Positions 8,523-38,985 of a stretch of DNA of 64,000 bases are shown here, piece after piece (position 1 is the first letter of the stretch; the number at the start of each line of letters is the position of its first letter). Position numbers and translations under genes: made by a program. The notes below the pieces were generated by a model. That model did not search any database and was not told the DNA's origin. It was given only the letters and a program-made list of their open reading frames with translations. The stretch comes from Lactobacillus sp. ESL0679 (GTDB lineage: Bacteria; Bacillota; Bacilli; Lactobacillales; Lactobacillaceae), in assembly GCF_029433515.1 (NCBI RefSeq), contig NZ_JAQTIG010000004.1:1-64000 (forward strand), in the 5' to 3' direction.

Positions 8523-10166
8523 ATGAAAGAAAATAATTTAAAAGAGCAAAACACGCAGGATACCTTCATTAAGGGTAGTGCGTGGATGACTTTTGGCTCG
8601 ATTACATCACGACTTTTGGGTGCATTGTACATCATTCCGTGGTTCATCTGGATGCAGCCGTATGGCAATATTGCTAACGCTCTGACGGCTAGAAGTTATA
8701 ACATTTATAGTATTTTTATCTTGATTTCAACAGCTGGGATTCCCGGAGCAGTAGCTAAGCAGGTCGCCAAATATAACGCCCTTAATGAATATGGCGTTGG
8801 TCGTAAATTATTTCGTAAAGGTTTAATTTTGATGGTGGTCTTAGGCATTGTTTCAGCTGCTGTGATGTATTTTGCCTCACCACTTTTAGCTTCGAATGGG
8901 TCACGTAGTGATCCGCGACAAGTGGCGGTAATGCGCAGTCTGTCTTACGCCATCTTGATTATTCCGATTTTGAGTATCATGCGGGGATATTTCCAAGGGT
9001 ATGCAGATATGATGCCATCGGCAGTTTCACAATTTGTGGAACAGCTTGCGCGTGTCGTGTGGATGCTGCTAACTGCATATATTATTATGCAGGTGCAGCA
9101 CGGTTTTTTTGTTAACGCAGTTGTCCAGTCAAACTTAGCAGCGGCCATTGGAGCAGTTTTTGGAATTGCAATTTTAGTCTGGTTTTTGTTTACGCGGCGG
9201 CACAAGTTGAATAACCTTGTTGCTAATTCAAATAATGAAGTTGAAGTTTCAACAATGGGGCTGTTTGGCGAAATCATCGCTCAGGCAATTCCGTTCATTA
9301 TTATTGATGCGGGAATTCAGCTATTTTACTTAGTTGACCAATATACTTTCCACCCAATGATTGCAAGCTTAGTGCAGGCTCATTACAACACAATTGAGAC
9401 TTGGTATGCCTTGTTCGCGCTTAATGCGAATAAGTTAATCATGATTATTGTGTCCCTAGCTAGTGCAATGGCAGTTACGGCAATTCCATTATTGTCAGCA
9501 GCCCATGCTAAGCACGATTTTCGTGGTATTTCAAAGCAAATTGGTAATACGCTAGACTTATTTTTGTTCGTGATGATCCCAGCAGCATTTGGGATGGCAG
9601 CGATAGCGACACCGATTTACACCATCTTTTATGGTTATGACAAGTTGGGCGCAGATGTTTTATATTTATCATCCTTTACGGCGATTTCGCTAGGGTTGTT
9701 TACCGTTTTAATGGCTATCCTGCAAGGATTATCAGAAAATGGTCTGGCAATAAAATATCTTGTGCTCGGGCTGATAATTAAAATTATCACGCAGTACCCA
9801 ATGGTGTATGTCTTTAAAATCTATGGCCCGTTAGTAGCGACTAATTTGGGGATGCTGGTTATTATTTTCTTGGCGTTGAAGCATCTTCAGGTAAGTTATG
9901 ACTTTAATAGCAGCCGAACCAGCCGGCGGTTTATCGGCATTACTTCATTTTCCGTAATTATGTTTCTACTTGTGATAGCAGTTGAAAAGGCTATGGAACT
10001 TGTATTAAACCCAACAGTTCGTTGGCAAGCACTATTGATTGTTGCTGTTTCTGTTCTTGTTGGTGGCGTCTTCTACGTCTTTGCGGCAATTAAGTCTGAC
10101 TTGGCGCAAAAGATTTTAGGTGACAAGATTGTTCCTATTTTAAGAAAGTTACATATTCGAGCATAA
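8523..10166 (+). CDS. MurJ/SpoVB-like lipid II flippase (polysaccharide biosynthesis family)
   Basis: A 547-residue multidrug/oligosaccharidyl-lipid/polysaccharide (MOP) superfamily protein with about 14 membrane helices. The N-terminal FIKGSAWMTFGSITSRLLGALY segment is typical of the YtgP/SpoVB branch. In Bacillus subtilis YtgP acts as a lipid II flippase, so a role in exporting lipid II for peptidoglycan synthesis is likely. Polysaccharide subunit export is the alternative. It is a single gene between leuS and a terminator. Confidence 0.85.
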   Translation: MKENNLKEQNTQDTFIKGSAWMTFGSITSRLLGALYIIPWFIWMQPYGNIANALTARSYNIYSIFILISTAGIPGAVAKQVAKYNALNEYGVGRKLFRKGLILMVVLGIVSAAVMYFASPLLASNGSRSDPRQVAVMRSLSYAILIIPILSIMRGYFQGYADMMPSAVSQFVEQLARVVWMLLTAYIIMQVQHGFFVNAVVQSNLAAAIGAVFGIAILVWFLFTRRHKLNNLVANSNNEVEVSTMGLFGEIIAQAIPFIIIDAGIQLFYLVDQYTFHPMIASLVQAHYNTIETWYALFALNANKLIMIIVSLASAMAVTAIPLLSAAHAKHDFRGISKQIGNTLDLFLFVMIPAAFGMAAIATPIYTIFYGYDKLGADVLYLSSFTAISLGLFTVLMAILQGLSENGLAIKYLVLGLIIKIITQYPMVYVFKIYGPLVATNLGMLVIIFLALKHLQVSYDFNSSRTSRRFIGITSFSVIMFLLVIAVEKAMELVLNPTVRWQALLIVAVSVLVGGVFYVFAAIKSDLAQKILGDKIVPILRKLHIRA

Positions 10167-10167
10167 A

Positions 10168-10206
10168 AAAAGACGTTATCACGTAATTGTGATAGCGCCT
10201 TTTTTG
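10168..10206 (+). terminator. terminator of the flippase gene
   Basis: Stem AGACGTTATCAC/GTGATAGCGCCT with a short AT loop, preceded by A-run and followed by six T. It sits directly at the stop codon. Confidence 0.85.
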
Positions 10207-10287
10207 GTTACAAAATAGCGTCAAAGCTGCTTTGTACGCCCCTGCCAAGGAATTCTATTATACCATAATACTTAGATAGCTAATAAC

Positions 10288-10509
10288 TCAATGCTTATGA
10301 TATTCCCCATTAAGAATATTATCACGATGGCCGTGCTCTGGAATTGCAAAGGCAGCAATAATGTAAAGTATTAACCCCCAACCAGTAAAGCAAATTAGGG
10401 CACCGCCGGCAATTCTTGTCCAAGCCTTGTCCCAATCGAAATATTCAGCGATGCCACCTAGAACGCCAGTCAAAATTTTGTCGTGCGATTTTGTTAAATG
10501 TTTTTGCAT
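10288..10509 (-). CDS. small PspC-domain membrane protein
   Basis: A 73-residue protein with the PspC domain: KILTGVLGGIAEYFDWDKAWTRI, then a hydrophobic helix (GALICFTGWGLILYIIAAFAIP). In proteobacteria PspC takes part in the phage shock envelope response. In Lactobacillus such short copies usually stand alone and are thought to sense envelope stress. No other psp genes are seen here. The His-rich tail (EHGHRDNILNGEYHKH) is unremarkable. The gene is preceded by AAAGGAGCAG. Confidence 0.85.
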   Translation of the reverse strand: MQKHLTKSHDKILTGVLGGIAEYFDWDKAWTRIAGGALICFTGWGLILYIIAAFAIPEHGHRDNILNGEYHKH

Positions 10510-10540
10510 TACTCTGCTCCTTTACCATGATTTAGGTTAT

Positions 10541-10571
10541 AAAAAAAGCCAATCATCACAGATCAGCTTTT
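10541..10571 (-). terminator. terminator of tRNA-Leu
   Basis: On the minus strand, AAGCTGAT pairs with ATTGGCTT (with G-U pairs), followed by seven T, 5 nt beyond the tRNA-Leu 3' end. It separates the tRNA from the PspC gene downstream. Confidence 0.7.
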
Positions 10572-10575
10572 ACAA

Positions 10576-10659
10576 TGCCCCGAAAAAGATTCGAACTTTC
10601 ACTTAGTTACCTAAACAGCGACCTGAACGCTGCGCGTCTGCCAATTCCGCCATCGGGGC
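10576..10659 (-). tRNA. tRNA-Leu (CAG)
   Basis: An 84-nt class II tRNA on the minus strand with acceptor arms GCCCCGA/TCGGGGC, D-arm GGCGGAATTGGCAGACGC and anticodon loop TTCAGGT giving CAG, reading CUG. A long variable arm is present and CCA is not encoded. Confidence 0.94.
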
Positions 10660-10758
10660 TTAAATATTTTTAGCACAGTAATAATAATACCAAAAATTTG
10701 GTAAAATGTAAGCATAAAACAGAAAATATCTAAAATTTTTTCTAATTAAGGAGGATTT

Positions 10759-12048
10759 ATGACTTTTAAGCATAAATTTAACAGAATTATTGTTGCTTTG
10801 GTGGCAATTGTGTTACTAATGTTGCCGGCAGTTCCAATTTCTGCAGCAACTCAAGTGCCAAATGATTATAATACTAACCAGTTGAATTTAAATGTTAAGT
10901 CGGCGATTGCAATTGACAGCAAGACCGGTCAGTTATTGTACGGCAAGAATATTAATCAGCCACTACCAATCGCCTCGATGACCAAGTTGATTACGGTTTA
11001 TTTGACTTTGACGGCAATTAAAGAGGGAAAATTAACGTGGCAAACTAAGGTGAAGCCAACTGATGCGATTATCCGGGTGGCCAACAACAAGGATTTTTCT
11101 AACGTGCCACTGCATGTGGGCCACGAATATAGCATTAAGCAGCTATATCAGGCGACTTTAATTGAGTCGGCTAATGGTGCTGCGATGTTATTAGGACAAG
11201 CTGTCAGCGGCGCTCAAGTGCCGTTTGTCAAAAAGATGCGGCAGCAACTGACCAGATGGCAGATTAATGATGCCCAAATTTATACAAGTTGTGGCTTGCC
11301 GAATAAGGATGTGGGTGCTGATGCTTATCCGGGTGCCGCAAGTCAGGCTGAAAATGAACTCTCAGCTAAGGATATGGCAATTGTTGGGCAGCATTTACTC
11401 ACTGATTTTCCGCAAGTTATTAAGACGGCGAAGATTGCTCGCTTGGATTTTATAGATCAAAACACGCGAACAGCAATGGTGAACTTTAACTGGATGCTTA
11501 AGGGACTATCGCAGTATAATCCTCAGTTAAAAGTTGACGGCTTAAAGACTGGAACAACCGATGCGGCCGGTGCCTGTTTTATCGCAACGGCCGAGCATAA
11601 CGGTGCCCGAATTATTACCGTTGTAATGGGTGCTGCCCACCGCGATGGCAGCGACCCGTCGCGTTTTATTCAGACCAAAGAGCTGTTAAGCTATCTTTAC
11701 CGCACCTATCGGCCGATTATTTTTACTAAAAACGAAGTAATCACAGGTCTAACCAGTATGAAAGTTCATAACGGTAAAGCGCGACAGATTAATATTGGCA
11801 TAAAAGAAAATAGTGAGGTGTGGGCGCCGATTAACGGTGCAAAGTTGCACGTTGAATTAGCTGATGATCAGGTTGAAGCACCCGTAAAAGTTGGACAGAC
11901 AGCAACGAATTATTTATTTAAAGCGGGCAGTGCTCCGTTAATTTCGCTGACAAACCCTAGTGGGGTTCGCTTGCCAGCCAAGGCATTTCAAAGGACGACA
12001 AAGGTTAACTTTTTAGTTCGCTTTTGGCGTTGGCTTTTTGGAGGTTAA
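10759..12048 (+). CDS. dacA: D-alanyl-D-alanine carboxypeptidase (PBP5 type)
   Basis: A secreted, membrane-anchored enzyme that trims the terminal D-Ala from peptidoglycan stem peptides. A signal peptide covers about residues 1-30. The active-site serine is in S73-M-T-K76, the second motif is S137-A-N139, and the KTG box is in GLKTGTT. A PBP5 C-terminal beta domain and an amphipathic anchor (VNFLVRFWRWLFGG) follow. At 429 residues it has family length. An AAGGAGG site precedes ATG, and nnrD starts 3 nt after its stop. An inverted repeat ACCAAA-AA-TTTGGT at 10688-10701 lies in its upstream region, role unknown. Confidence 0.95.
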   Translation: MTFKHKFNRIIVALVAIVLLMLPAVPISAATQVPNDYNTNQLNLNVKSAIAIDSKTGQLLYGKNINQPLPIASMTKLITVYLTLTAIKEGKLTWQTKVKPTDAIIRVANNKDFSNVPLHVGHEYSIKQLYQATLIESANGAAMLLGQAVSGAQVPFVKKMRQQLTRWQINDAQIYTSCGLPNKDVGADAYPGAASQAENELSAKDMAIVGQHLLTDFPQVIKTAKIARLDFIDQNTRTAMVNFNWMLKGLSQYNPQLKVDGLKTGTTDAAGACFIATAEHNGARIITVVMGAAHRDGSDPSRFIQTKELLSYLYRTYRPIIFTKNEVITGLTSMKVHNGKARQINIGIKENSEVWAPINGAKLHVELADDQVEAPVKVGQTATNYLFKAGSAPLISLTNPSGVRLPAKAFQRTTKVNFLVRFWRWLFGG

Positions 12049-29184: not shown

Positions 29185-29275
29185 TTTTATACCTCTTTTA
29201 TTTCAAAATTTAGTTTCTTTTAATATCATGCTATCATATAAAATGAGTAAATTCATTAAAAGAAAGACAGGAAAT

Positions 29276-30016
29276 ATGGTTCTGAAAATTGAGCACTTAA
29301 CTGGTGGCTACACGGGCGTGCCAGTAATTAGAAATATTAACTTAGAGATTAAACCGGGCGAGGCCTTGGGATTAATTGGACTAAATGGTGCGGGAAAGTC
29401 CACAACAATCAAGCATCTTTTGGGTTTATTAAGACCGCAAAAGGGGACAATCCGTCTTAATGGCGTGGAACTAACTAAGCAGCCGACGGAGTTTAAGCAA
29501 GAGGTTGCGTATATTCCAGAGACACCGGTTTTATATCCAGAATTAACCTTGGCGGAACATTTGGAATTGACGATGCTGGCTTACCAACTAATTCCGCAAA
29601 CAGCTTGGGAGCGAGCAGAGAAATTATTAAAATTATTCCGCTTAGATGACAAGTTGGATTGGCTGCCGATCCACTTTTCAAAAGGAATGAAACAAAAAGT
29701 AATGATTGTGACAGCCTTTTTAGCCGATACCAGCTTATTGGTAATTGATGAGCCATTCACTGGACTTGACCCGTTAGCAGTTGCCAATTTGATTGATTTA
29801 ATTAAGCAGGCAATCGCTGACGACAAGATGGTCTTGATGACGACCCACGTTTTAGCAGACGCTGAGCAGGCAATCTCTAACTATGCGGTTTTAAATAACG
29901 GCACAATTGAGGTAATCGGCAGCCTTGATGAAATTCGGGCACATTATGGTTTGAAGCCAAGCGATGCTTTTGACAAGCTTTATCAAGTTTTGAATCAGGA
30001 GCAGCACCATGCGTAG
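29276..30016 (+). CDS. ecsA: ABC transporter ATPase EcsA
   Basis: Cytoplasmic ATPase of the Ecs transporter, which in Firmicutes affects protein secretion, intramembrane proteolysis and peptide pheromone export. Walker A GLNGAGKST, the signature FSKGMKQKV and Walker B LLVIDEPFTGLD are present. I start it at ATG 29276, giving the usual 246 residues (MVLKIEHLTGGY). Upstream in-frame ATGs lack ribosome sites. It overlaps ecsB by 8 nt. The link to pheromone processing may matter for the peptide system at 33.9 kb (inference). Confidence 0.93.
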   Translation: MVLKIEHLTGGYTGVPVIRNINLEIKPGEALGLIGLNGAGKSTTIKHLLGLLRPQKGTIRLNGVELTKQPTEFKQEVAYIPETPVLYPELTLAEHLELTMLAYQLIPQTAWERAEKLLKLFRLDDKLDWLPIHFSKGMKQKVMIVTAFLADTSLLVIDEPFTGLDPLAVANLIDLIKQAIADDKMVLMTTHVLADAEQAISNYAVLNNGTIEVIGSLDEIRAHYGLKPSDAFDKLYQVLNQEQHHA

Positions 30017-31208
30017 ATTGGCTCAAATTCGACTTCAGCATAATTTACGGCAGTCGCTCAAATATTTAATGTTAGTTTTCAACGACTTTTTTATCCTAGC
30101 GTTAATTTTTCTCTTTGGTGCCTTGATGTATTGGTATGCACAAAGCATGAAGACGATTCCGCAAGGATTATGGTTTTATCGACCACTAGTTGCGGCATTA
30201 TTATGGCTGCCATTATTAACGGGCAACCTAGTTACGCTCCTGCAAGAAGCAGACCTGCAATTTTTATTGCCGCAAGATGAGCAGATGAACTTGTATTTAA
30301 GTCCTTTAGTCAAGTACAGTATGGCACTGCCGACATTATTAATTGTATTGTTAGCCGGTATTTTATTTCCGTTTGCAACGATTAAGGCGGGCCTAGCGCC
30401 AGTAAGTTATTGGGAATTTGCAGTTGCCATATGGCTTGGTAAGATTTTACAATTAAAAATCACCCAGCAAAATCTGTATTTTGGTCGGAAAATTTCATTA
30501 GTTTTAGTTAACTTAGCATTATTAATTGTTCTGTGTTTAGCAATAATGCAGCCGATATTAATTTGGCTGTTACTGGTCTTATTAGTAGCCGGTATTGTTG
30601 CGATGTACTTATTTTTGGAACGGAAAACATTATTTGATTGGCGTTATGCTGTAGCTCTAGAAGAAAAACGTAAAAATCGGGTCTACACTGCCTTTAGCAT
30701 GTTTACTGACGTCAAAGAAAAGCAAGTCACTATCAAGCGGCGGAAGTATCTAGACTTTTTGTTGCCGCGGTCACTTGAACGCGAAAATCCTAACCGCTTT
30801 TTGTATCGGCGGTCGCTATTGCGTAATCCGGAAAATTTAAATTTATTGGTGCGAATGACCGCTTTTGCAATTCTTATCTCATGGCTTGTCCAAAATTGGG
30901 CGTGGGCACTTGGATTATCTTGCCTAGTAATCTTTTTGACAGCTTATCAGTTGCTACCCATGGCTGACGAGTTTGATGATAATATTATGTATCGTGTTGC
31001 GCCAATTTTGCGTCAAAATCGGGGCCACGACTTAATTGTTGCCTTAAGGTTGCCAATGTTATTACAATGGTTGTTGATTAGCGCGTCATGGCTGCTATTA
31101 TTGCCATTTAACATACAGTTGCTGGAGGCAATTGGGTTGCTAATTTGCTTTAGTGGCTTGATTGTGCAGCTGTATCTACCATATAAAATTAAGAAGAGGA
31201 AGATTTAA
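30009..31208 (+). CDS. ecsB: ABC transporter permease EcsB
   Basis: A 399-residue membrane subunit with hydrophobic helices grouped at about residues 25-130, 165-200 and 275-395, and a cytoplasmic basic loop near 210-260. It is the partner of EcsA, whose gene it overlaps. trmB follows after 3 nt. No third ecsC gene is present. Confidence 0.9.
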   Translation: MRRLAQIRLQHNLRQSLKYLMLVFNDFFILALIFLFGALMYWYAQSMKTIPQGLWFYRPLVAALLWLPLLTGNLVTLLQEADLQFLLPQDEQMNLYLSPLVKYSMALPTLLIVLLAGILFPFATIKAGLAPVSYWEFAVAIWLGKILQLKITQQNLYFGRKISLVLVNLALLIVLCLAIMQPILIWLLLVLLVAGIVAMYLFLERKTLFDWRYAVALEEKRKNRVYTAFSMFTDVKEKQVTIKRRKYLDFLLPRSLERENPNRFLYRRSLLRNPENLNLLVRMTAFAILISWLVQNWAWALGLSCLVIFLTAYQLLPMADEFDDNIMYRVAPILRQNRGHDLIVALRLPMLLQWLLISASWLLLLPFNIQLLEAIGLLICFSGLIVQLYLPYKIKKRKI

Positions 31209-31211
31209 TAA

Positions 31212-31871
31212 ATGAGATTACGAAATAAGCCGTGGGCCGTGGAGTTAGTGAAGAACCATCCAGAGAGTGTTCTTGATCGACCAGATCCAGAAGTAAAGAT
31301 TGACTGGGCACAGCGGTTCCCTAAGCCTGAGCAGCCATTAGAAATTGAAGTAGGTTCAGGAAAAGGGCATTTTATTACCACCTTGGCCGAGATGCACCCA
31401 GAAAAAAACTTTGTGGCGGTTGAATTGCAGATTACGGCTGCTGGCATTATCTTGCGCACAAAGCTTGATAAACAATTAGATAATTTGCAAATTTTGTGTG
31501 CCGATGCGGCAGCAATTGATGCGTTTTTTGCACCAAATTCAACTGATGTCATTTACCTTAACTTTAGCGATCCGTGGCCAAAGACGCGGCATGAAAAACG
31601 CCGCTTGACTTACCAATCATTTTTAAGTAAATATGAAAAGGTCTTAACTGATGCAGGTCAGATTGAGTTTAAAACGGATAATGCTGGGTTATTTGCGTAT
31701 TCATTGCAGAGTATGAATAATTACGGGATGCATTTTGACTTTGCATCCGTTGATTTACACCATGAGGCTGAAGAGATTGTGGCACAAAACGTGGAAACAG
31801 AATATGAACACAAATTTGCTGCTAAAGGTAATCCAATTTATGCTCTTCATGCTGATTTTGGAGTAAAATAG
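31212..31871 (+). CDS. trmB: tRNA (guanine-N7)-methyltransferase
   Basis: Methylates G46 of tRNA with S-adenosylmethionine. The SAM-binding loop EVGSGKGHFITTLA (about residues 42-55), and the family motif DPWPKTRHEKRRL are present. The 219 residues fit. The gene lies 3 nt behind ecsB. Confidence 0.95.
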   Translation: MRLRNKPWAVELVKNHPESVLDRPDPEVKIDWAQRFPKPEQPLEIEVGSGKGHFITTLAEMHPEKNFVAVELQITAAGIILRTKLDKQLDNLQILCADAAAIDAFFAPNSTDVIYLNFSDPWPKTRHEKRRLTYQSFLSKYEKVLTDAGQIEFKTDNAGLFAYSLQSMNNYGMHFDFASVDLHHEAEEIVAQNVETEYEHKFAAKGNPIYALHADFGVK

Positions 31872-31906
31872 TTAAGTATTGAATAACAATAAAAGAGGTT
31901 ATACCG

Positions 31907-32227
31907 ATGGAACAAATTAAAGAATTAACTCAAGAAAAATTAACTGAAATTACCAAAAATGGACGGACTGTTTTGGAATTTTCGGCTGATTGGTGCCCAG
32001 ACTGCCGCTTCTTAGACCCATTTATGCCTGCGATTGAGCAAGATTTTGCCGATAGTAAGTTCTATCAAATTGACCGTGATGGCTCAATTGATTTGGCTAA
32101 AGAATTAGATATTATGGGAATTCCTTCATTTGTTGTCTACCAAGATGGCGCAGAAATTGGTAGACTAGTAAATAAGGATCGCAAGACTAAAGATGAAGTT
32201 GAGGACTTTTTGCGGTCACTCGACTAA
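31907..32227 (+). CDS. thioredoxin-family protein
   Basis: A 106-residue thioredoxin fold with the active-site sequence WCPDCRFLDP, so CPDC in place of the usual CGPC. It also has the cis-proline segment GIPSFVVY. It probably acts as a cytoplasmic thiol reductant. The order trmB, thioredoxin-like, ytpR is common in Lactobacillus and Bacillus (YtpP). Confidence 0.9.
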   Translation: MEQIKELTQEKLTEITKNGRTVLEFSADWCPDCRFLDPFMPAIEQDFADSKFYQIDRDGSIDLAKELDIMGIPSFVVYQDGAEIGRLVNKDRKTKDEVEDFLRSLD

Positions 32228-32243
32228 TGAAGGAGATAATTTA

Positions 32244-32891
32244 ATGATTACTAGTATTAATAAACGCAGTTACCCTAACACCTTAATCGTGATTTTGGGT
32301 CAAGATAACGGTAAGAGTGAATACGTCCAAAAGGGTGACATTACCCAAGTTATTGATGAAAAGGGCAATGTTACTGGTTATAACTTTTTTAACGTTGACC
32401 AAATAATTGACTACGATCAATTGCCAGATGGTCAAGTTAAATTAACCGCTGATGACTTAACTGCTTTAAACCAAAAATTGGCAGAAGCGGGCTTTGACAC
32501 CGAATTAGCTTATGGCAAGCCAACACTTGTCTACGGCTTTGTTAAGACTTGTGATAAGCATCCAGATTCTGACCATTTGCACGTCACAACAATTGAAGTT
32601 GGCGATGGTGAGGAACACCAAATCGTTTGTGGTGCCCCTAATATTGCTCAAGGTCAAAAAGTTGTTATTGCCCTTCCTGGTACTTTAATGCCTAATGGTC
32701 AACAAATCTGGCCTGGCGACTTACGCGGCGTTGCTTCATACGGGATGATTTGTTCAGCTCGCGAATTAGGCTTAGAGCATGCTGAACAAAAGCGCGGGAT
32801 TATGGTTGTCCCTGATGACTTTATAGTCGGTGCTGCTTTTGAACCAGAAAAATGTGATGAATTGTTAGCTAGCGGCAAGATTAAGCTATAA
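32244..32891 (+). CDS. ytpR: YtpR family tRNA-binding protein
   Basis: A 215-residue protein with a C-terminal tRNA-binding OB-fold (about residues 90-195: KTCDKHPDSDHLHVTTIEVGDG, QIVCGAPNI, MICSARELGL), like the N-terminal domain of PheT, and an N-terminal DUF4479 domain. I start it at ATG 32244, after AAGGAGAT. A longer frame overlapping the thioredoxin gene lacks a site. Its cellular role is not settled. Confidence 0.88.
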   Translation: MITSINKRSYPNTLIVILGQDNGKSEYVQKGDITQVIDEKGNVTGYNFFNVDQIIDYDQLPDGQVKLTADDLTALNQKLAEAGFDTELAYGKPTLVYGFVKTCDKHPDSDHLHVTTIEVGDGEEHQIVCGAPNIAQGQKVVIALPGTLMPNGQQIWPGDLRGVASYGMICSARELGLEHAEQKRGIMVVPDDFIVGAAFEPEKCDELLASGKIKL

Positions 32892-32938
32892 GTCATATGA
32901 AAAATTTGGATTTTACTTGATAAAGCTAAATAGTAATT

Positions 32939-32971
32939 AAAGAGGCTGTCACGATTGTGACAGCCTCTTTA
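32939..32971. terminator. terminator between ytpR and the regulator gene
   Basis: Stem AAAGAGGCTGTCAC/GTGACAGCCTCTTT with loop GATT, usable from both strands. It closes the housekeeping operon and marks the left edge of the lanthipeptide island. Confidence 0.9.
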
Positions 32972-32982
32972 CGTATACTTTT

Positions 32983-33816
32983 TTAAAATTGATTATTGAA
33001 TTTGGTTATTTCTTCGTTTAATGCTTGGTGGACACTGGTAGCCCCCATTTCCTTTAGAACACTTAAACAATGTAGAGCTTCTTTTTGATTATGATGACAG
33101 ATAGCTAGTCTGCCTTTGGCTAAAAACAGTTTGTCATAACGAAAAGAGTGCTCAATAAGTGGTAATGCTCTATTTAAACTAGTAATTGCGGTGCTGAAAT
33201 CTTGTCGCTCCATATAAAGAATGGCTTGATTAAGAAGAAAACTAGATTCTAATGACTTTAAAAATTGATAATTATTTTCAATTGTTTGAATTGCCTGGTC
33301 TGATATGCTGGCCATAGTTTCTTCATCAAAAGCAAAAAAAATCAAATTAATAATGCAGAGGTCTAATATTGTCCAAGTTTCATTCTTAGATAAATAATCA
33401 TGCCAAACAGGCAAAATAAGCTTTCTTGCTAAGGCTAAATTATTTGTATTGGCTGCCTTAAAGCCTTTCAAAATAGGTATTAGTCTGGTAATTACTGGAT
33501 CAGAAGATAATAAAGTACTTTGCTCAATTATCTTGTCAATCTTATTTGTTTCTGTGTTGTAAGCGATATTGAGAATATCATAAATTATCTTGTCATGTGT
33601 ATCAAGCTGATAATTATTGCGAATATAAGAAAATTCATCTGGAGTAATTCCTAAGGTTCTGATTAAGCTAACTGCCATTTCGTAAGCAGGTTCTTCAGCT
33701 GAATGTTCAATCTTAGAGATAGTAGACCTATTTATTCGGGTATTACTCGATAACTGACGTTGGGTAATGTTTCGTGACTTACGAATTTTCTGTAGGGTTT
33801 CACCAAAAGTTTTCAT
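32983..33816 (-). CDS. Rgg/GadR/MutR-type transcriptional regulator
   Basis: A 277-residue regulator with an XRE-type helix-turn-helix (residues 5-60, LQKIRKSRNITQRQLSSNTRINRSTISKIE is the core) and a C-terminal array of TPR-like helices (about 75-277). This layout is that of Rgg proteins of the RRNPP group, which bind short hydrophobic peptides imported by the oligopeptide permease. It is divergent from a 14-residue hydrophobic peptide gene and the lanthipeptide genes, which it most likely controls. No Opp genes lie in the window. Its promoter seems to share a -10 box with the divergent promoter. Confidence 0.82.
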   Translation of the reverse strand: MKTFGETLQKIRKSRNITQRQLSSNTRINRSTISKIEHSAEEPAYEMAVSLIRTLGITPDEFSYIRNNYQLDTHDKIIYDILNIAYNTETNKIDKIIEQSTLLSSDPVITRLIPILKGFKAANTNNLALARKLILPVWHDYLSKNETWTILDLCIINLIFFAFDEETMASISDQAIQTIENNYQFLKSLESSFLLNQAILYMERQDFSTAITSLNRALPLIEHSFRYDKLFLAKGRLAICHHNQKEALHCLSVLKEMGATSVHQALNEEITKFNNQF

Positions 33817-33850
33817 AGCTTCTCTTTCTAAAAATATATAAATGTGAAAT

Positions 33851-33903
33851 TTGACAACAAATTGCTACTTCTATTTATAACTTTGATTTAATAATGGTGT
33901 CAA
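33851..33903. promoter_or_regulatory. overlapping divergent promoters sharing one -10 box
   Basis: Plus strand: -35 TTGACA (33851-33856), 17-bp spacer, -10 TTTATA (33874-33879). Minus strand: -35 TTGACA (33898-33903 read in reverse), 18-bp spacer, -10 TATAAA on the same six base pairs (33874-33879). The two promoters face each other, so polymerase could not occupy both. Expected starts are near 33886 (peptide) and 33867 (regulator), giving leaders of about 50 nt each. The TTGACA/TGTCAA pair may also form the regulator's binding site. Confidence 0.65.
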
Positions 33904-33933
33904 CAAAATTAATTGAATTGAAAGGAAAAAATT

Positions 33934-33978
33934 ATGTTGAAAATATTTTTAGTGGGTTTTTCGTTACTTATCGGTTGA
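33934..33978 (+). CDS. SHP-like short hydrophobic peptide (candidate pheromone)
   Basis: ATG with AAAGGA 7 nt upstream and a 14-codon frame: MLKIFLVGFSLLIG. The composition (one Lys, then Leu/Ile/Phe/Val and a Gly at the end) is that of SHP pheromones, which are encoded divergently from their rgg. Most SHPs are 20-30 residues, so this one is short and may need no cleavage, or may not be functional. The promoter at 33851-33879 is well placed for it. Pheromone role is inferred from position and composition. Confidence 0.6.
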   Translation: MLKIFLVGFSLLIG

Positions 33979-34010
33979 TTTCATTAATGGTTGAAGGGAA
34001 GTGATATGAA

Positions 34011-34148
34011 TTGAATCAAATTATAGATAACTTTATTCATGAGATAGAAAAATTAGCTCATGATAGTAGTAAAAAGAAAAGCGGTATTCATGGAATAAAG
34101 GATAAGAATAGAACTTATATTTGTTATCATGATTTTAAAATTATTTAG
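34011..34148 (+). CDS. candidate peptide precursor with TYIC motif, unrelated leader
   Basis: A TTG start about 12 nt after AGGG opens a 45-codon frame. The N-terminal part is helical and acidic (NQIIDNFIHEIEKLAHD), followed by a basic linker (SSKKKSGIHGIKDK) and the end NRTYICYHDFKII. TYIC is shared with the two lanthipeptide precursors that follow, but the LNLQ leader motif is missing. It may be a diverged precursor, an immunity or regulatory peptide, or a decaying copy. The next precursor starts 12 nt after its stop. Confidence 0.5.
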   Translation: MNQIIDNFIHEIEKLAHDSSKKKSGIHGIKDKNRTYICYHDFKII

Positions 34149-34160
34149 ATAGAAGTTGAT

Positions 34161-34280
34161 ATGATGAAAGAAAATCCATCGTTGAATCTGCAAACTGAAG
34201 ATTTGTTGAAAAGAAAGTCATCAAAATCAAAAAAACGTAAAACATACATATGTTTAAATGTAAGCGTTATATTCATTTGA
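34161..34280 (+). CDS. class III lanthipeptide precursor, copy 1
   Basis: A 39-residue peptide starting at ATG 34161 (or 34164), after a weak AGAAG site. The leader holds SLNLQTEDLLKRK; LNLQ corresponds to the conserved (L/I)xLQ helix motif that LanKC enzymes recognise. A basic Ser/Lys linker (SSKSKKRK) leads to the core TYICLNVSVIFI. Thr28 and Cys31 can form a T-x-x-C methyllanthionine ring. Ser35 comes after the Cys, so no canonical labionin (S-x2-S-x3-C) is possible in the core. It is paralogous to copy 2 and precedes the exporter and synthetase genes. Confidence 0.78.
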   Translation: MMKENPSLNLQTEDLLKRKSSKSKKRKTYICLNVSVIFI

Positions 34281-34309
34281 TTGATTAAAATTTAGTTTTA
34301 CATTATAGA
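34281..34309 (+). promoter_or_regulatory. candidate promoter of lanthipeptide precursor 2
   Basis: A -35 box TTGATT (34281-34286), a 17-bp spacer and a -10 box TATAGA (34304-34309), right after the stop of precursor 1. In this AT-rich region chance matches are common, so this is tentative. Confidence 0.35.
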
Positions 34310-34362
34310 AAAAGTTTAAGATATCTACGTAAATCATTTTTATAATACGAGGAGATAAGAAT

Positions 34363-34482
34363 ATGGATAATAATGAAGTATTAAATCTGCAAACTGAAGA
34401 CTTGTTAAGGAAAAAGCATCATAAATCAAAGCCACAAGTAACATACATTTGTATTGGTGGTCTTATTATTCTTGCTGGATAG
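34363..34482 (+). CDS. class III lanthipeptide precursor, copy 2
   Basis: A 39-residue peptide with a good AGGAGA site 7 nt before ATG. The leader contains VLNLQTEDLLRKK, matching copy 1 at LNLQTEDLL. The core side reads VTYICIGGLIILAG. Thr27 and Cys30 are the only Thr/Cys pair after the leader, and Ser22 lies in the basic linker, so one T-x-x-C ring is the simplest product. The Gly-rich hydrophobic tail is like the C-terminus of SHP pheromones. DNA encoding the leader motif shares 17 identical bases with copy 1 (34185-34201 and 34384-34400), showing duplication. Confidence 0.82.
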   Translation: MDNNEVLNLQTEDLLRKKHHKSKPQVTYICIGGLIILAG

Positions 34483-34571
34483 TGAATAAGCTTTAAAGGG
34501 ATTTCTTTAAATAAAGATTGTATCAGAATTTATTAGTTGAAAAATGTTTAATAAATTTCCATCAAGTTTTA

Positions 34572-34608
34572 AGGGCACATCTTTAGGCTATTTTAAGATG
34601 TGCCTTTA
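34572..34608 (+). terminator. hairpin between precursor and exporter genes
   Basis: Stem AAGGGCACATCTTTA/TAAGATGTGCCTTT with an 8-nt loop, followed only by a short T stretch. It is placed so as to let partial read-through set high precursor and low enzyme expression, or to protect the precursor mRNA. The stretch from 34483 to 34571 contains nothing else I recognise. Confidence 0.65.
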
Positions 34609-34636
34609 CTAGTTGAAATAGAATGAGAGTCTACTT

Positions 34637-36361
34637 ATGGAAAAGAAGATAACTTTATATACCTTATCGTGGGGATTTGTTTTTGGGATATTGCTTAGTG
34701 TTTGTGGGACCTTTGTTAATATTTGGGTACCATTAGTTATTAAGCAGTTAGTAGATGCCAAGACTAAGATTGTTAATCATTTAAATATCAATCTAGCGTT
34801 AGTAGTTGCCGTGGCAATTATTCTAAGTGCTATTGTGAGTGCAATTAGTGAGTATCTCATCAGTGTAGCAGGTGATCGCAAGATTGCTGCTGTGCGGATG
34901 CAGGTTGAGCAGCATTTACTTACACTGCCAATGAGTTTTTTTGCTGATAAAAGAAGTGGTCAACTCTCAAGTCGAGTAATTAATGATGCTGAGGTTGTAC
35001 AGGATTTTATGACTGGCAGTATTCCAACGAGTATTAATAGTTTGATCACGATTGTTGGTTCATTTTTGATTCTCTTTAGTCTTGATTGGCGATTAACGTT
35101 ATTTATTATTTTGTCTTTTTCATTAATTATTTTTATTGCCATTCCTATTGGGAAGATTAGCGAAAAGCTGTCAGTAATTACGCAGAATAAGCTGAGTGAA
35201 CTGTCGGGTCAAAGCACAGAAAATCTCTATAATATTCGCAGTATTAAGTTAAATAATGCTTATCGGCCAGTTTTAGCTAATTTTAAAGACGTTGTTAATA
35301 ATCTCTTTAAGGTATCTAAGAGAACTGACAAGATTTTTTCAATTGTTGGGCCAATCCAAACCGTTTTCACTCTTGGCATCATTTTAATGATTATTATTTA
35401 TGGTGGTATTCGTGTTCAGCAGCAGAGTTTGAGTATTGGAACGTTGGTTTCTTTTTTAATATATCTTTTCCAAGTAATTGATCCCATTAATTCCTTAGGC
35501 AATTTTTATGCGGGATATAAGCAAGCTAAAGGTGCGACTGTTAAGCTTAATAAGATTCTAAATACGCAAGGTGAACAGGATGTTTATACCAAGCAAATAT
35601 CACAATTACCTGTATGTGGTGATTTGATTTTGCAAAATGTGTCTTTTTCTTATAACGATCAGGAACCGGTTTTACAAAATGTGTCACTTAAGTTTGCGGC
35701 AGGTAAGAAGACGGCAATTGTTGGTCCGTCTGGTGCAGGGAAAACGACAATTATTAATTTGTTAGCAAGACTGTATGAAATAGAGCATGGAAAATTACTT
35801 TTGGGTCAAGAACAGGCATCAGAATATAAGTTAAGTACTTGGCGGGATATGTTTGCTGTTGTGACACAAGAAAATACAATTATTTCGGGAACAATTTATT
35901 TGAATTTAACCTTTGGTTTAGCCCAAAAACCAAAAGACAGTGCAATTTGGTCGGCACTTGAAAAGGCTAACTTAGCTGCTGAGATCAAAAAATTACCGCA
36001 AGGATTGCAAACTGTTGTCGGGGAGCAAGGTGTAGGTCTATCTGGTGGTCAGAGGCAGCGTCTGCAATTAGCACGTGCATATTTAAGAAACGCAAACTTT
36101 TTAATTTTAGATGAAGCAACATCCAACTTAGATCCTGATTCCGAAAAAATTGTCTCGGATGCTTTGAATAAAATTATGATGGGGCAGAAGACAACCTTAA
36201 TTGTGATCGCACACAGACTGTCAACAATTGTTGATTCAGACAAAATCTACTTTTTGGATCAACATCGCGTTATTGGCAGTGGCACGCATAAAGACTTAAT
36301 GCAAAAAGTTCCTAAGTATCAGCAGTTTGTTAAGGAACAAATTTTAGCAGTTAATGAATAG
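34637..36361 (+). CDS. ABC exporter of the lanthipeptide cluster (LanT-like)
   Basis: A 574-residue half-transporter with six membrane helices (about residues 10-285) fused to an ATPase: Walker A GPSGAGKTT (363-371), signature LSGGQRQR (468-475) and Walker B LILDEATSNLD (489-499). There is no C39 peptidase domain, so leader removal must be done elsewhere, as is usual for class III clusters. It starts 28 nt after the hairpin and is 14 nt before the synthetase gene. Export of the modified peptides is inferred from context, with multidrug-type export as alternative. Confidence 0.85.
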   Translation: MEKKITLYTLSWGFVFGILLSVCGTFVNIWVPLVIKQLVDAKTKIVNHLNINLALVVAVAIILSAIVSAISEYLISVAGDRKIAAVRMQVEQHLLTLPMSFFADKRSGQLSSRVINDAEVVQDFMTGSIPTSINSLITIVGSFLILFSLDWRLTLFIILSFSLIIFIAIPIGKISEKLSVITQNKLSELSGQSTENLYNIRSIKLNNAYRPVLANFKDVVNNLFKVSKRTDKIFSIVGPIQTVFTLGIILMIIIYGGIRVQQQSLSIGTLVSFLIYLFQVIDPINSLGNFYAGYKQAKGATVKLNKILNTQGEQDVYTKQISQLPVCGDLILQNVSFSYNDQEPVLQNVSLKFAAGKKTAIVGPSGAGKTTIINLLARLYEIEHGKLLLGQEQASEYKLSTWRDMFAVVTQENTIISGTIYLNLTFGLAQKPKDSAIWSALEKANLAAEIKKLPQGLQTVVGEQGVGLSGGQRQRLQLARAYLRNANFLILDEATSNLDPDSEKIVSDALNKIMMGQKTTLIVIAHRLSTIVDSDKIYFLDQHRVIGSGTHKDLMQKVPKYQQFVKEQILAVNE

Positions 36362-36375
36362 AAAGTAGGGCAATA

Positions 36376-38985
36376 ATGGAATTAACAGGTAATGACTACC
36401 TTGGATTTATTAAAGATGACAAGACATTATTTTATCAACCTAACAATAATCAGCAGGATGGTTTTAAATATATTAAGCCAACTGGCAAGTTTTATGATTA
36501 TAGTGATAATTATTGGCATTACATTTTGTTTGATCATCAATTGCCTGAACAAGGTTGGAAAATCCATATTTCAGCAAATATTAAGGATGCTCAGCAGTTG
36601 CTACTTGCTGTTAGTAAATATTTGACGGTTAAACAGGTAACGTATAAATTTGTGAATACTCTTGATGAGCTGGTTTTAAGTAATTCAAAGTATGGCGATC
36701 GTGCAGGCTCAGGAAAGTTCATTACGATTTATCCAAGAACTGACAAAGAATTTGTTCAGCTACTTGATGAACTAGCGCAAGTTACAAGCAATTTTTTAGA
36801 AGGTCCATATATTCTAAGCGATAAGGAATGGCACGATACCCATATTTTTTATCGCTATGGTGCATTTAAAGAAATCAAAGCAAAAATTAATGGTAAAGAA
36901 GTATATTGCATCAGGGATAATCATGGAAATCTAATTGAAGATAAAAGAGTACCATACTATCAAGTGCCTGAGTTCATTGTGGAACCTGCTGAATTGCAAT
37001 CTAACGTTCAACAATATAACCAATCTGAATTTAAACAATTAATGAAGTATCAAATTGACTCAGCACTGCATTTTAGTAATGCTGGTGGAGTTTATCATGC
37101 AACTTTAAATGGTAATGAGTGCGTCTTAAAAGAAGGTCGTGCTCATGCCGGTCTTGATGCTAATGGCTTGGATGGTTTTGAGCGAGTAGAACGCGAATAT
37201 AAGGCTTTGGCAAAGTTGCATGATGTTCCAGAGACAGTTAATGTCTTTGAAAAATTTAAGGCATGGAAGCATTTATACTTGGTAGAAGAATATCTTGAAG
37301 GAGATACATTGGCTGACTTTATTGATAGTCAGTATCCGTTTACTGCAAGTAAAGCTGAAAAAAAGAAGTATGCAAAAAAATGTGTTGCAATTATTAATGC
37401 ATTGACAGTGGCAGTTGAGCATATCCATAGTTATGGCTTAGCGATTGGCGATTTACAGCCAGACAATGTTATTTTACTTAATTTAACAGACAATATCATT
37501 AAATTAATTGACTTTGAAAACTCGCAAAAATTGACTGCTAAATATCAGCCGGGGATGGCAACACCAGGTTATGCTGATGTTAATGCTCATACCTTTGGGG
37601 AGGCTGATAATATTGCTTTATATAAGATTGCGCGTTATATGATTTTGCCAATAGCCAGTGGTTTTGATTGGGCTCCTGAAATCGAGCAAGAACAGGATAA
37701 AAATATTGCTAATGAATTTGGTCCTGAAATTGTAGACTTTTTTCATTGCTTGAAAAATAAGTTGAGCCTAGATTTTAATACTTCTGCACGCCACCCACAA
37801 CATTATCAAGCAAATTTGTCTAAGCCAAAAACAAGTTTTGATATTGATAACCTTGATAAAAATATTGCAGAAGTAGCACAGGGGATTATCCAACATCTTA
37901 ATTTTGATTTTAGGGGCTTAATTCGTGGTGATATTGCAGAATATGATTCTCAAACTAGTTATTACTCAGTAGCTAAAGGTGCTTTTGGTGCAATTATGGC
38001 ATTGACAAGGTCTAATTGCTTAAATAACAAAATCAATCACCAGATTCATAATTGGATTGACAATCAGATTACTAATATTAAAAAATTGCTAGATCATCAG
38101 GATAATAATAGCGGGTTATTTACAGGACTTACAGGTATTGCGGTAGTTTTAGCTGAACAGGGCTATCAAGAGTTGAGCAAATTAATTATGGACAAATTGT
38201 TGTCTTGTAAATTAAACCAAGATATTTCAATTTATTCTGGAATTTCTGGTGTAGGTCTAGCCTACTTAACGTTTTATATGCAGAATAATGATGAAAAATA
38301 TTTGCGCCAAGCGCAATTATTAGCTAAAAAAGTTAGTGAACTTACTCAATCAAGAAATTATACTAAAGAATGTGATAGTGGCTTGTTAACGGGCTGGTTA
38401 GGTGCAGCTCTGTTTTTGTGGAAAATGTATATTGCTACTAAGTTTGAAAAATATCGCATAGAAGCATTAAGAATATTGCATTTAGTATTGAGCAATTCAC
38501 TCGAAATTGAGCAAACTGTTGCTTATATTAAAGACAATACATTATCTTATGAACGGTTGATGCCGTATGTAAATCATGGTAGTGCAGGTTTGGCGTTATT
38601 ATTAATAGAATTTATTCAAGATAGCCCCGAAAGTGTTAGTCAGGATGAAAAAGCTATATTACAAAAATTAATTAAAACCAATGATGTTTTTGTAACATAC
38701 TTAGATGGCTTATTTGATGGCTTTATTAGCTTAATAGTTTTGGATACTGCAGTTGCCAATTTAACTGATGATAACCGATTAGCACACAAGCTAAAATTGC
38801 TTAATAATTATATTGTAGGTCAAGGAGATGCGGCTTTCGTTCAGGGAAGATTCGGCTATAAACTATCACTTGATTTGACAACTGGTAATAGTGGCTTATT
38901 ACTAGTACTTAATGATATTAAGCAGCATAAGTGGGGATCATGGATGCCACTTTTTAAAAGTGATCAATTTAAATTATTCTGTTAA
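36376..38985 (+). CDS. class III lanthipeptide synthetase (LanKC)
   Basis: An 869-residue three-domain enzyme that phosphorylates Ser/Thr of precursor peptides, eliminates phosphate and forms thioether rings. The lyase domain covers about 1-210 (YGDRAGSGKFITIYP at 106-120 and GPYILSD at 143-149). The kinase covers about 225-460 (Lys252 in VLKEG, catalytic D359 in GDLQPDNV, DFEN at 379-382 in place of DFG). The LanC-like cyclase covers about 500-869, with glycine motifs at 579, 618, 668, 733 and 836. The zinc ligands of LanC are missing: NHG stands where CHG would be, and SGLLTG where a WCYG-type Cys would be. That places it in class III rather than IV. Confidence 0.9.
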   Translation: MELTGNDYLGFIKDDKTLFYQPNNNQQDGFKYIKPTGKFYDYSDNYWHYILFDHQLPEQGWKIHISANIKDAQQLLLAVSKYLTVKQVTYKFVNTLDELVLSNSKYGDRAGSGKFITIYPRTDKEFVQLLDELAQVTSNFLEGPYILSDKEWHDTHIFYRYGAFKEIKAKINGKEVYCIRDNHGNLIEDKRVPYYQVPEFIVEPAELQSNVQQYNQSEFKQLMKYQIDSALHFSNAGGVYHATLNGNECVLKEGRAHAGLDANGLDGFERVEREYKALAKLHDVPETVNVFEKFKAWKHLYLVEEYLEGDTLADFIDSQYPFTASKAEKKKYAKKCVAIINALTVAVEHIHSYGLAIGDLQPDNVILLNLTDNIIKLIDFENSQKLTAKYQPGMATPGYADVNAHTFGEADNIALYKIARYMILPIASGFDWAPEIEQEQDKNIANEFGPEIVDFFHCLKNKLSLDFNTSARHPQHYQANLSKPKTSFDIDNLDKNIAEVAQGIIQHLNFDFRGLIRGDIAEYDSQTSYYSVAKGAFGAIMALTRSNCLNNKINHQIHNWIDNQITNIKKLLDHQDNNSGLFTGLTGIAVVLAEQGYQELSKLIMDKLLSCKLNQDISIYSGISGVGLAYLTFYMQNNDEKYLRQAQLLAKKVSELTQSRNYTKECDSGLLTGWLGAALFLWKMYIATKFEKYRIEALRILHLVLSNSLEIEQTVAYIKDNTLSYERLMPYVNHGSAGLALLLIEFIQDSPESVSQDEKAILQKLIKTNDVFVTYLDGLFDGFISLIVLDTAVANLTDDNRLAHKLKLLNNYIVGQGDAAFVQGRFGYKLSLDLTTGNSGLLLVLNDIKQHKWGSWMPLFKSDQFKLFC

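Follow-up and report, generated by a model that had tools for sequence, protein, structure and literature searches.

The 64,000-nt stretch of the Lactobacillus sp. ESL0679 genome considered here (the window) contains, at 32983-38985, a compact island that combines an Rgg-type regulator with genes for a class III lanthipeptide. ESL-numbered Lactobacillus strains are presumably bee-derived. The regulator faces a rightward series made up of a 14-codon open reading frame (ORF), three small ORFs that share the motif TYIC, an ABC exporter and the class III synthetase LanKC. A first-pass annotation had listed exactly these genes, and each was found where that annotation had placed it; the long frames of the cluster are all intact. 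The island is probably a class III lanthipeptide cluster controlled by a pheromone switch of the Rgg/SHP (short hydrophobic peptide) type. Its features, followed by a transporter that lies outside it, are:

32983..33816, minus strand: Rgg/RRNPP-like regulator of 277 aa, with a helix-turn-helix (HTH) and a tetratricopeptide repeat (TPR)-type C-terminal domain (HTH_3, 2e-11)
33842..33859, strand unassigned: candidate Rgg operator ATGTGAAATTTGACAACA, fitting the pattern ATGTGAAATNNGNNAACA
33934..33978, plus strand: SHP-like pheromone ORF of 14 codons, MLKIFLVGFSLLIG, preceded by AAAGGAAAAAATT
34011..34148, plus strand: precursor 1, with a TTG start, a diverged leader IIDNFIHEIEKLAH and the core/end RTYICYHDFKII
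34161..34280, plus strand: precursor 2, with the leader LNLQTEDLL and the core TYICLNVSVIFI, ending in KTYICLNVSVIFI
34363..34482, plus strand: precursor 3, with the leader LNLQTEDLL and the core TYICIGGLIILAG, ending in VTYICIGGLIILAG
34570..34608, plus strand: 14-bp hairpin without a T-run, between the precursors and the exporter
34637..36361, plus strand: ABC exporter, membrane and ATPase parts (ABC_membrane, 3.9e-45; ABC_tran, 1.5e-28)
36376..38985, plus strand: LanKC, class III lanthipeptide synthetase (lyase-kinase-cyclase; RamC_N, Pkinase, LANC_like)
29228..31208, plus strand, outside the island: EcsA/EcsB-type ABC transporter, kin of PptAB (EcsB, 2e-88; ABC_tran, 8.6e-32)

The upstream flank consists of the EcsAB-like genes, a gene that we take to be trmB, and thioredoxin and tRNA-binding genes; the gene downstream is presumably murC. 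The hairpin lies in a stretch (34555-34640) with a predicted folding energy (dG) of -25.3 and a z-score of -3.6, and similar sequence is present in all four of the syntenic clusters described below. The hairpin at 34570-34608 was not called as a terminator and is possibly an attenuator or an RNA-processing site.

The synthetase and its precursors

The synthetase scores 679.2 bits against the model NF038151, for which the cut-off is 575, and contains RamC_N, Pkinase and LANC_like domains, which bears out the class III assignment made in the first-pass annotation. Residues 39-865 of its 869 align with solved LanKC chains such as 8sap. The LanM model gives 34 bits against a cut-off of 304, so the enzyme is not of the LanM type that characterizes TprA/PhrA loci. 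Nor do the three long island proteins include a radical S-adenosylmethionine (SAM) enzyme, as would mark a RaS-RiPP locus (RiPP, ribosomally synthesized and post-translationally modified peptide). Pfam found no peptidase domain in the ABC exporter.

The motif TYIC, present in all three precursors, supplies a Thr and a Cys able to form a (methyl)lanthionine ring. A basic stretch precedes it in each case, and the tail is strongly hydrophobic in precursors 2 and 3. The LNLQ leader that the first-pass annotation had associated with TYIC is found in two of the three, but not in precursor 1, the leader of which has diverged. By reading, none of the three window precursors contains a labionin-type Sx2Sx3C core.

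A survey of 75 genomes of the genus yielded 16 LanKC matches above the cut-off, in 13 genomes, and the regions around the other 15 were taken for comparison (L031-L045; L-numbers are locus codes and G-numbers genome codes). L046 (G017), where the LanKC score falls under the cut-off, is excluded from all counts. Peptides with an LxLQ-type leader and an [ST]xxC motif accompany LanKC at 14 of the 16 loci, in keeping with the suggestion of the first-pass annotation that short ORFs with leader and ring motifs be sought beside the enzyme; none was found at L038 and L039, even when looser criteria were applied to the gaps around the genes there. An orphan LanKC was also considered, and was rejected because precursors adjoin the enzyme in the window and at these 14 loci. 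Annotation might miss such precursors, as the first-pass annotation had supposed: in the set of PMC7268733, as far as the accessible part of that paper goes, 55% of class III precursors were unannotated.

Cores at the other loci include SLICFHDF (L041), which the core of precursor 1 resembles, SLICGHTFFGIF (L033 and L037), SLICIGKI (L040), SLLCGNVVHGHK and SLICGHT (L034-L036) and TYICNNSIGTVYFPAY (L035). Most precursors in the genus have a single [ST]xxC ring site, and those at L031 and L032 could carry two. In the Bacillus-like, Paenibacillus and Staphylococcus loci examined, cores often have several Ser/Thr residues or a second ring site. Comparison of precursor 1 between the window, L034 and L036 gave a nonsynonymous divergence (dN) of 0.06-0.08 and a synonymous divergence (dS) of 0.26-0.31, and a peptide beginning MSNNILQLQ (L034 against L035 or L036) gave dN 0.05 and dS 0.39-0.45, values that rest on 45-52 codons. 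To judge from these substitutions, precursor 1 is conserved at the peptide level. Precursors 2 and 3 are without an ortholog for such a comparison, and the values for a peptide beginning MLECILALQ (L034 against L035/L036; dN 0.80, dS 0.52), taken over ungapped codons of peptides of unequal length, were not used.

The same LanKC precursor occurs at L044 (G001:C15, of the genus of the window) and at L052, the record of which bears the title Faecalicatena absiana, a public name that is possibly in error.

Four clusters in the same place

The cluster stands after the same genes in the window, L034, L035 and L036, the L035 stretch being N from the end of lanKC onward. Between all pairs of these four genomes, the DNA of the exporter and lanKC is 92.8-97.9% identical; the ranges are 80.5-93.5% for trmB, 83.0-93.0% for murC (three genomes) and 80.6-91.2% for rgg. 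When the window is compared with L036 in 250-base steps, identity is 78-91% over 31001-34000, 92% over precursor 1, 90-97% over the exporter and lanKC, and 79-89% from 39001. The segment 34251-34500 does not align with L036, nor with L034 or L035. The contrast between flanks and machinery is clear for L036 and L035 but does not extend to L034, where the flanks reach 90-99% identity. On these alignments the cluster is a mosaic, in which the machinery appears to have been shared or homogenized between species and the precursors swapped.

The first-pass annotation had made its reading depend on the small ORFs being conserved along with the synthetase. The outcome goes partly against that reading: the exact precursors and the pheromone do change in the three syntenic relatives, but each of the four clusters contains peptides that bear the same leader and ring signature.

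L034 has a 465-aa ORF between LanKC and murC (oriented positions 9614-11011) that is absent from the window and L036 and is possibly a mobile element.

The regulator and its candidate pheromone

A profile built from nine members of the regulator's group matches solved chains that include Lmo0325, a MutR-family protein, PlcR and ComR, and compares with chains 10lg (Rgg3) and 4yv6 (Rgg2) at 3e-7 or better. Regulators of the window type are found in 19 of the 75 genus genomes at E 1e-10; at E 1e-40 they are found in 3 of 397 family genomes, two of the three within the genus.

Among 191 loci, the pattern of the candidate operator, ATGTGAAATNNGNNAACA, occurs at eight distinct places, all of them beside an rgg gene (the window, L034-L036 and L165-L168); 172 loci have none, and the other matching loci are further copies of these eight places. 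It occurs once in the window and in none of 100 shuffles.

The 14-codon ORF at 33934-33978 is an adjoining, divergent gene for a short hydrophobic peptide, as is characteristic of Rgg/SHP pairs. Because these regions abound in short hydrophobic ORFs, the codons were used as evidence, and hydrophobicity alone was not. Between the window and L035 the peptide is identical while 6 of the 14 codons differ, all at third positions (six synonymous and no nonsynonymous changes). In simulations, six random substitutions spare the peptide with a probability of 5e-5, or 3.5e-4 with transition bias, and the codon evidence thereby counters a chance origin of the ORF. In a different genome, at L165, the Rgg is 54% identical to that of the window and faces MSISNFFIFLVGFSAMH, which shares the core IFLVGFS with the window peptide. 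Four of these seven codons differ, all synonymously, the Ser codon being TCG at one locus and AGT at the other, and the genes downstream are not those of the window. At L166-L168, an Rgg with 49% identity is accompanied by MISNFIFLFGCLAALF or a shortened form of it. The first nine residues of the peptide, written as a degenerate pattern, have a match in 2 of the 75 genus genomes. Thirteen of 18 more distant Rgg regions examined (20 were fetched) have an ATG ORF with a loose match to a ribosome-binding site; since several of these other short ORFs look spurious, only the L165-L168 peptides were used as evidence. The 14-aa ORF looks to be translated, and the evidence for this is good. The synonymous-only divergence and the recurrence of the IFLVGFS core both speak for the pheromone-like peptide that the first-pass annotation had proposed beside the regulator.

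Control of this type is not confined to the window. An Rgg gene is present at 6 of the 16 LanKC loci (the window, L031, L032 and L034-L036), while seven others (L038-L044) have a sensor kinase with a LytTR-type regulator, similar to AgrC/AgrA. Neither type was found in the stretches at the remaining three, L033, L037 and L045, the last of which is a 6-kb contig. Pfam was run on the Rgg proteins of L031 and L032 and the pairs of L038 and L041, and the other pairs were assigned by tblastn similarity; the response regulator of L040 is cut by the end of the stretch, and the kinase of L043 is in two ORFs of one frame. Since 13 of the 16 loci have a regulator of one kind or the other, control of the peptide-sensing type seems common among class III clusters in the genus, by two unrelated routes.

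Related regulators were also seen away from LanKC. At L171 (G051:C1:1450500-1457000), the peptide MLWILRRLGLC lies opposite an Rgg of the same group. After it come METYSNAQWRDGNR, then an enzyme of the ThiF family (E 4e-40), and then a protein of 402 aa that has no Pfam match but looks by eye like a major facilitator superfamily (MFS) exporter; the arrangement resembles a microcin C-like cassette. At L174, L175 and L177, short peptides rich in Trp and Leu (MNYLWEKLLWFCSKKIN, MDYLWKKLLWACLKAIKEN and MNELLKTILFWLYRNSL) accompany the rgg genes, and at L177 a secreted-looking 135-aa protein, presumably lactococcin 972-like, and ABC transporter-like genes come next. At L182 (G000:C18:100000-106500) and L176, the Rgg is accompanied by MDQLFRFVFLLFRKLS or MSELLKLFVWLILK before a near-identical, secreted-looking 180-aa protein, for which Pfam gave no match at L182.

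A proposed switch, its alternatives and its known relatives

The 14-aa peptide would be exported, probably through the nearby EcsAB/PptAB-like transporter, and then trimmed. An oligopeptide permease would re-import the trimmed peptide, which could then bind Rgg, and the peptide-bound regulator is predicted to act at the motif near 33842 to produce a rightward transcript for the pheromone, the three precursors, the exporter and LanKC. The synthetase would recognize the LxLQ-type leader helix, dehydrate the Thr of TYIC and close one small methyllanthionine ring to the Cys. A host protease would then remove the leaders, and the ABC exporter would release the peptides. Their role may be in narrow competition between closely related lactobacilli, which is a guess.

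The equipment for such a circuit is in place at the family level: EcsB, the PptB kin, is encoded at 30009-31208, 2 kb upstream of the island, and the genome has six OppA-type proteins and one M50 protease, so that PptAB/EcsAB, Opp and Eep-like functions are all represented. In S. thermophilus, SHP is exported by PptAB, of which EcsAB is a relative (PMC7564271, in the part available).

A number of observations weigh against this reading. The first-pass assignment of the regulator to Rgg stands on the group profile but is not confirmed by the curated models, which remain below cut-off (TIGR01716, 31.6-31.7, E 1.3e-7, cut-off 36.9; Rgg_C, 23.3, E 6e-5, cut-off 27). The AlphaFold model of the regulator is poor, with a mean confidence (pLDDT) of 63 from an input of two sequences only, and the best Foldseek matches of this low-confidence model, to the SHP receptor Rgg2, have E 2.6e-4 and a template modeling (TM) score of about 0.3. 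At L034 and L036 the 14-aa ORF is absent though rgg, the motif and the promoter region are kept, and precursor 1 follows directly; at the two remaining Rgg-linked LanKC loci, L031 and L032, there is neither a convincing pheromone ORF nor the motif, which is absent from 16 of 20 Rgg regions and present in four. The promoter and terminator scan placed no sigma-70 promoter over the motif; it gave one weak promoter-like match away from it, where shuffling leads one to expect 6.4, and no terminator. OppA and M50 proteins are general bacterial equipment, found in 11/14 and 14/14 control genomes, respectively. The island encodes no leader protease, and the genome has no Peptidase_M16_C (PF05193), the one family searched for leader removal; in Bacillus thuringiensis, the leader is removed by an M16B protease pair (PMC10604976, available part). 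Finally, in the accessible part of PMC10673953, Melissococcus plutonius showed no inhibition by supernatants from Lactobacillus Firm5 strains that carry lanthipeptide clusters, which counts against an antibiotic role.

The absence of the ORF from two of the four syntenic clusters, in which only the window and L035 keep it, can be accommodated in a broader view, put forward tentatively and with little confidence: the island may be an exchangeable social cassette, with a near-constant maker/exporter pair that travels among related species of Lactobacillus and a swapped signal, receptor specificity and set of product peptides, where the pheromone-less L034 and L036 listen to neighbors or use a precursor-derived lanthipeptide as their signal. 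It is also conceivable, but unlikely, that Rgg controls the cluster in response to something other than the 14-aa peptide: a lanthipeptide, some peptide encoded elsewhere or a ligand that is not a peptide. The same two clusters that keep rgg and the motif without the ORF would fit this, as would the divergence of the L034 Rgg, which is 61% identical to that of the window over alignment columns 99-170 and 87% and 94% identical on either side, as if the ligand had changed. Activation of ComR by non-peptide metabolites is given as possible in the accessible text of PMC12998947. However, strong constraint at the peptide level acts on the 14-aa ORF, the core of which is found again next to a second Rgg.

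It is very improbable that the ORF is a mere upstream leader that couples translation of the operon, with the regulator acting on something else. Its place ahead of all other ORFs on the presumed rightward transcript, and the frequency of short hydrophobic ORFs in such AT-rich regions, would suit that role, but what is conserved is the amino acids, beyond an open frame, and IFLVGFS recurs at a locus with different downstream genes. We give almost no credence to a decayed or silent cluster without a product, despite the fast precursor turnover between relatives and the pheromone missing in two, since the long frames are intact, the exporter and LanKC DNA is 93-98% identical among the four genomes and dN is below dS in precursor 1.

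An Rgg/SHP switch of this kind would provide a peptide pheromone that can be tested in a genus other than Streptococcus and a defined inducer for class III clusters that otherwise stay silent. It would also serve as a compact model of the way in which lactobacilli might link signaling to peptide production. Because regulators of the same group precede other bacteriocin-like loci, a single principle of induction might give access to several cryptic products.

LasX of the lactocin S system in Lactobacillus sakei is an Rgg-like regulator of a lanthipeptide cluster, in that case of class II, and we know of no SHP described for it. Other close regulatory relatives are streptococcal; what follows on published systems refers to the accessible parts of the papers cited. 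The streptococcal Rgg/SHP RiPPs (streptide and other radical SAM RiPPs) likewise have an Rgg and a short hydrophobic peptide beside a RiPP operon, but their maker is a radical SAM enzyme and their host Streptococcus, in contrast to LanKC and Lactobacillus here (PMC11002830). TprA/PhrA and TprA2/PhrA2 of Streptococcus pneumoniae also join a cytoplasmic peptide receptor and an oppositely oriented peptide gene to a lanthionine peptide cluster, but with a PlcR-type receptor, a Sec-exported Phr and LanM-type enzymes (PMC7595303). The pneumococcal Rgg939/SHP939 operon includes a lanthionine biosynthesis protein, but it is an 11-gene transcript that influences polysaccharide production and is not described there as a multi-precursor class III cluster (PMC13361665).

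On the enzyme side, andalusicin/ThurKC (PMC10604976) and family III 6 (PMC7268733) share LanKC and an LELQL/LxLQ leader helix with the window, and family III 6 clusters also contain an ABC transporter while lacking a conserved protease. ThurA cores undergo 11 dehydrations and form labionin (PMC10604976), whereas the window precursors have one [ST]xxC site, a basic linker and a variable tail. Class III clusters have been described in Firmicutes (PMC7268733), and antiSMASH detected them in bumblebee Lactobacillus Firm5 (PMC10673953), which thus likewise have LanKC in this genus. The words Rgg and quorum are absent from the text of that paper, and its accessible part does not describe the class III precursors. 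According to PMC10075063, 196 clusters are possibly under RRNPP systems, six of them in Lactobacillaceae, and the general idea is therefore already in print.

In the open-licence literature, among the matches listed and leaving out PMC10885120 and PMC12016500, no title or abstract start joined an Rgg/SHP system to a class III cluster in Lactobacillus. The pairing that the first-pass annotation had called unusual is new in that sense, though not unique within the genus, as the six Rgg-linked LanKC loci attest. The parts of the island are of known kinds, and their joining is new to the literature searched, with precedents in the streptococcal Rgg/SHP RiPPs, TprA/PhrA and Rgg939.

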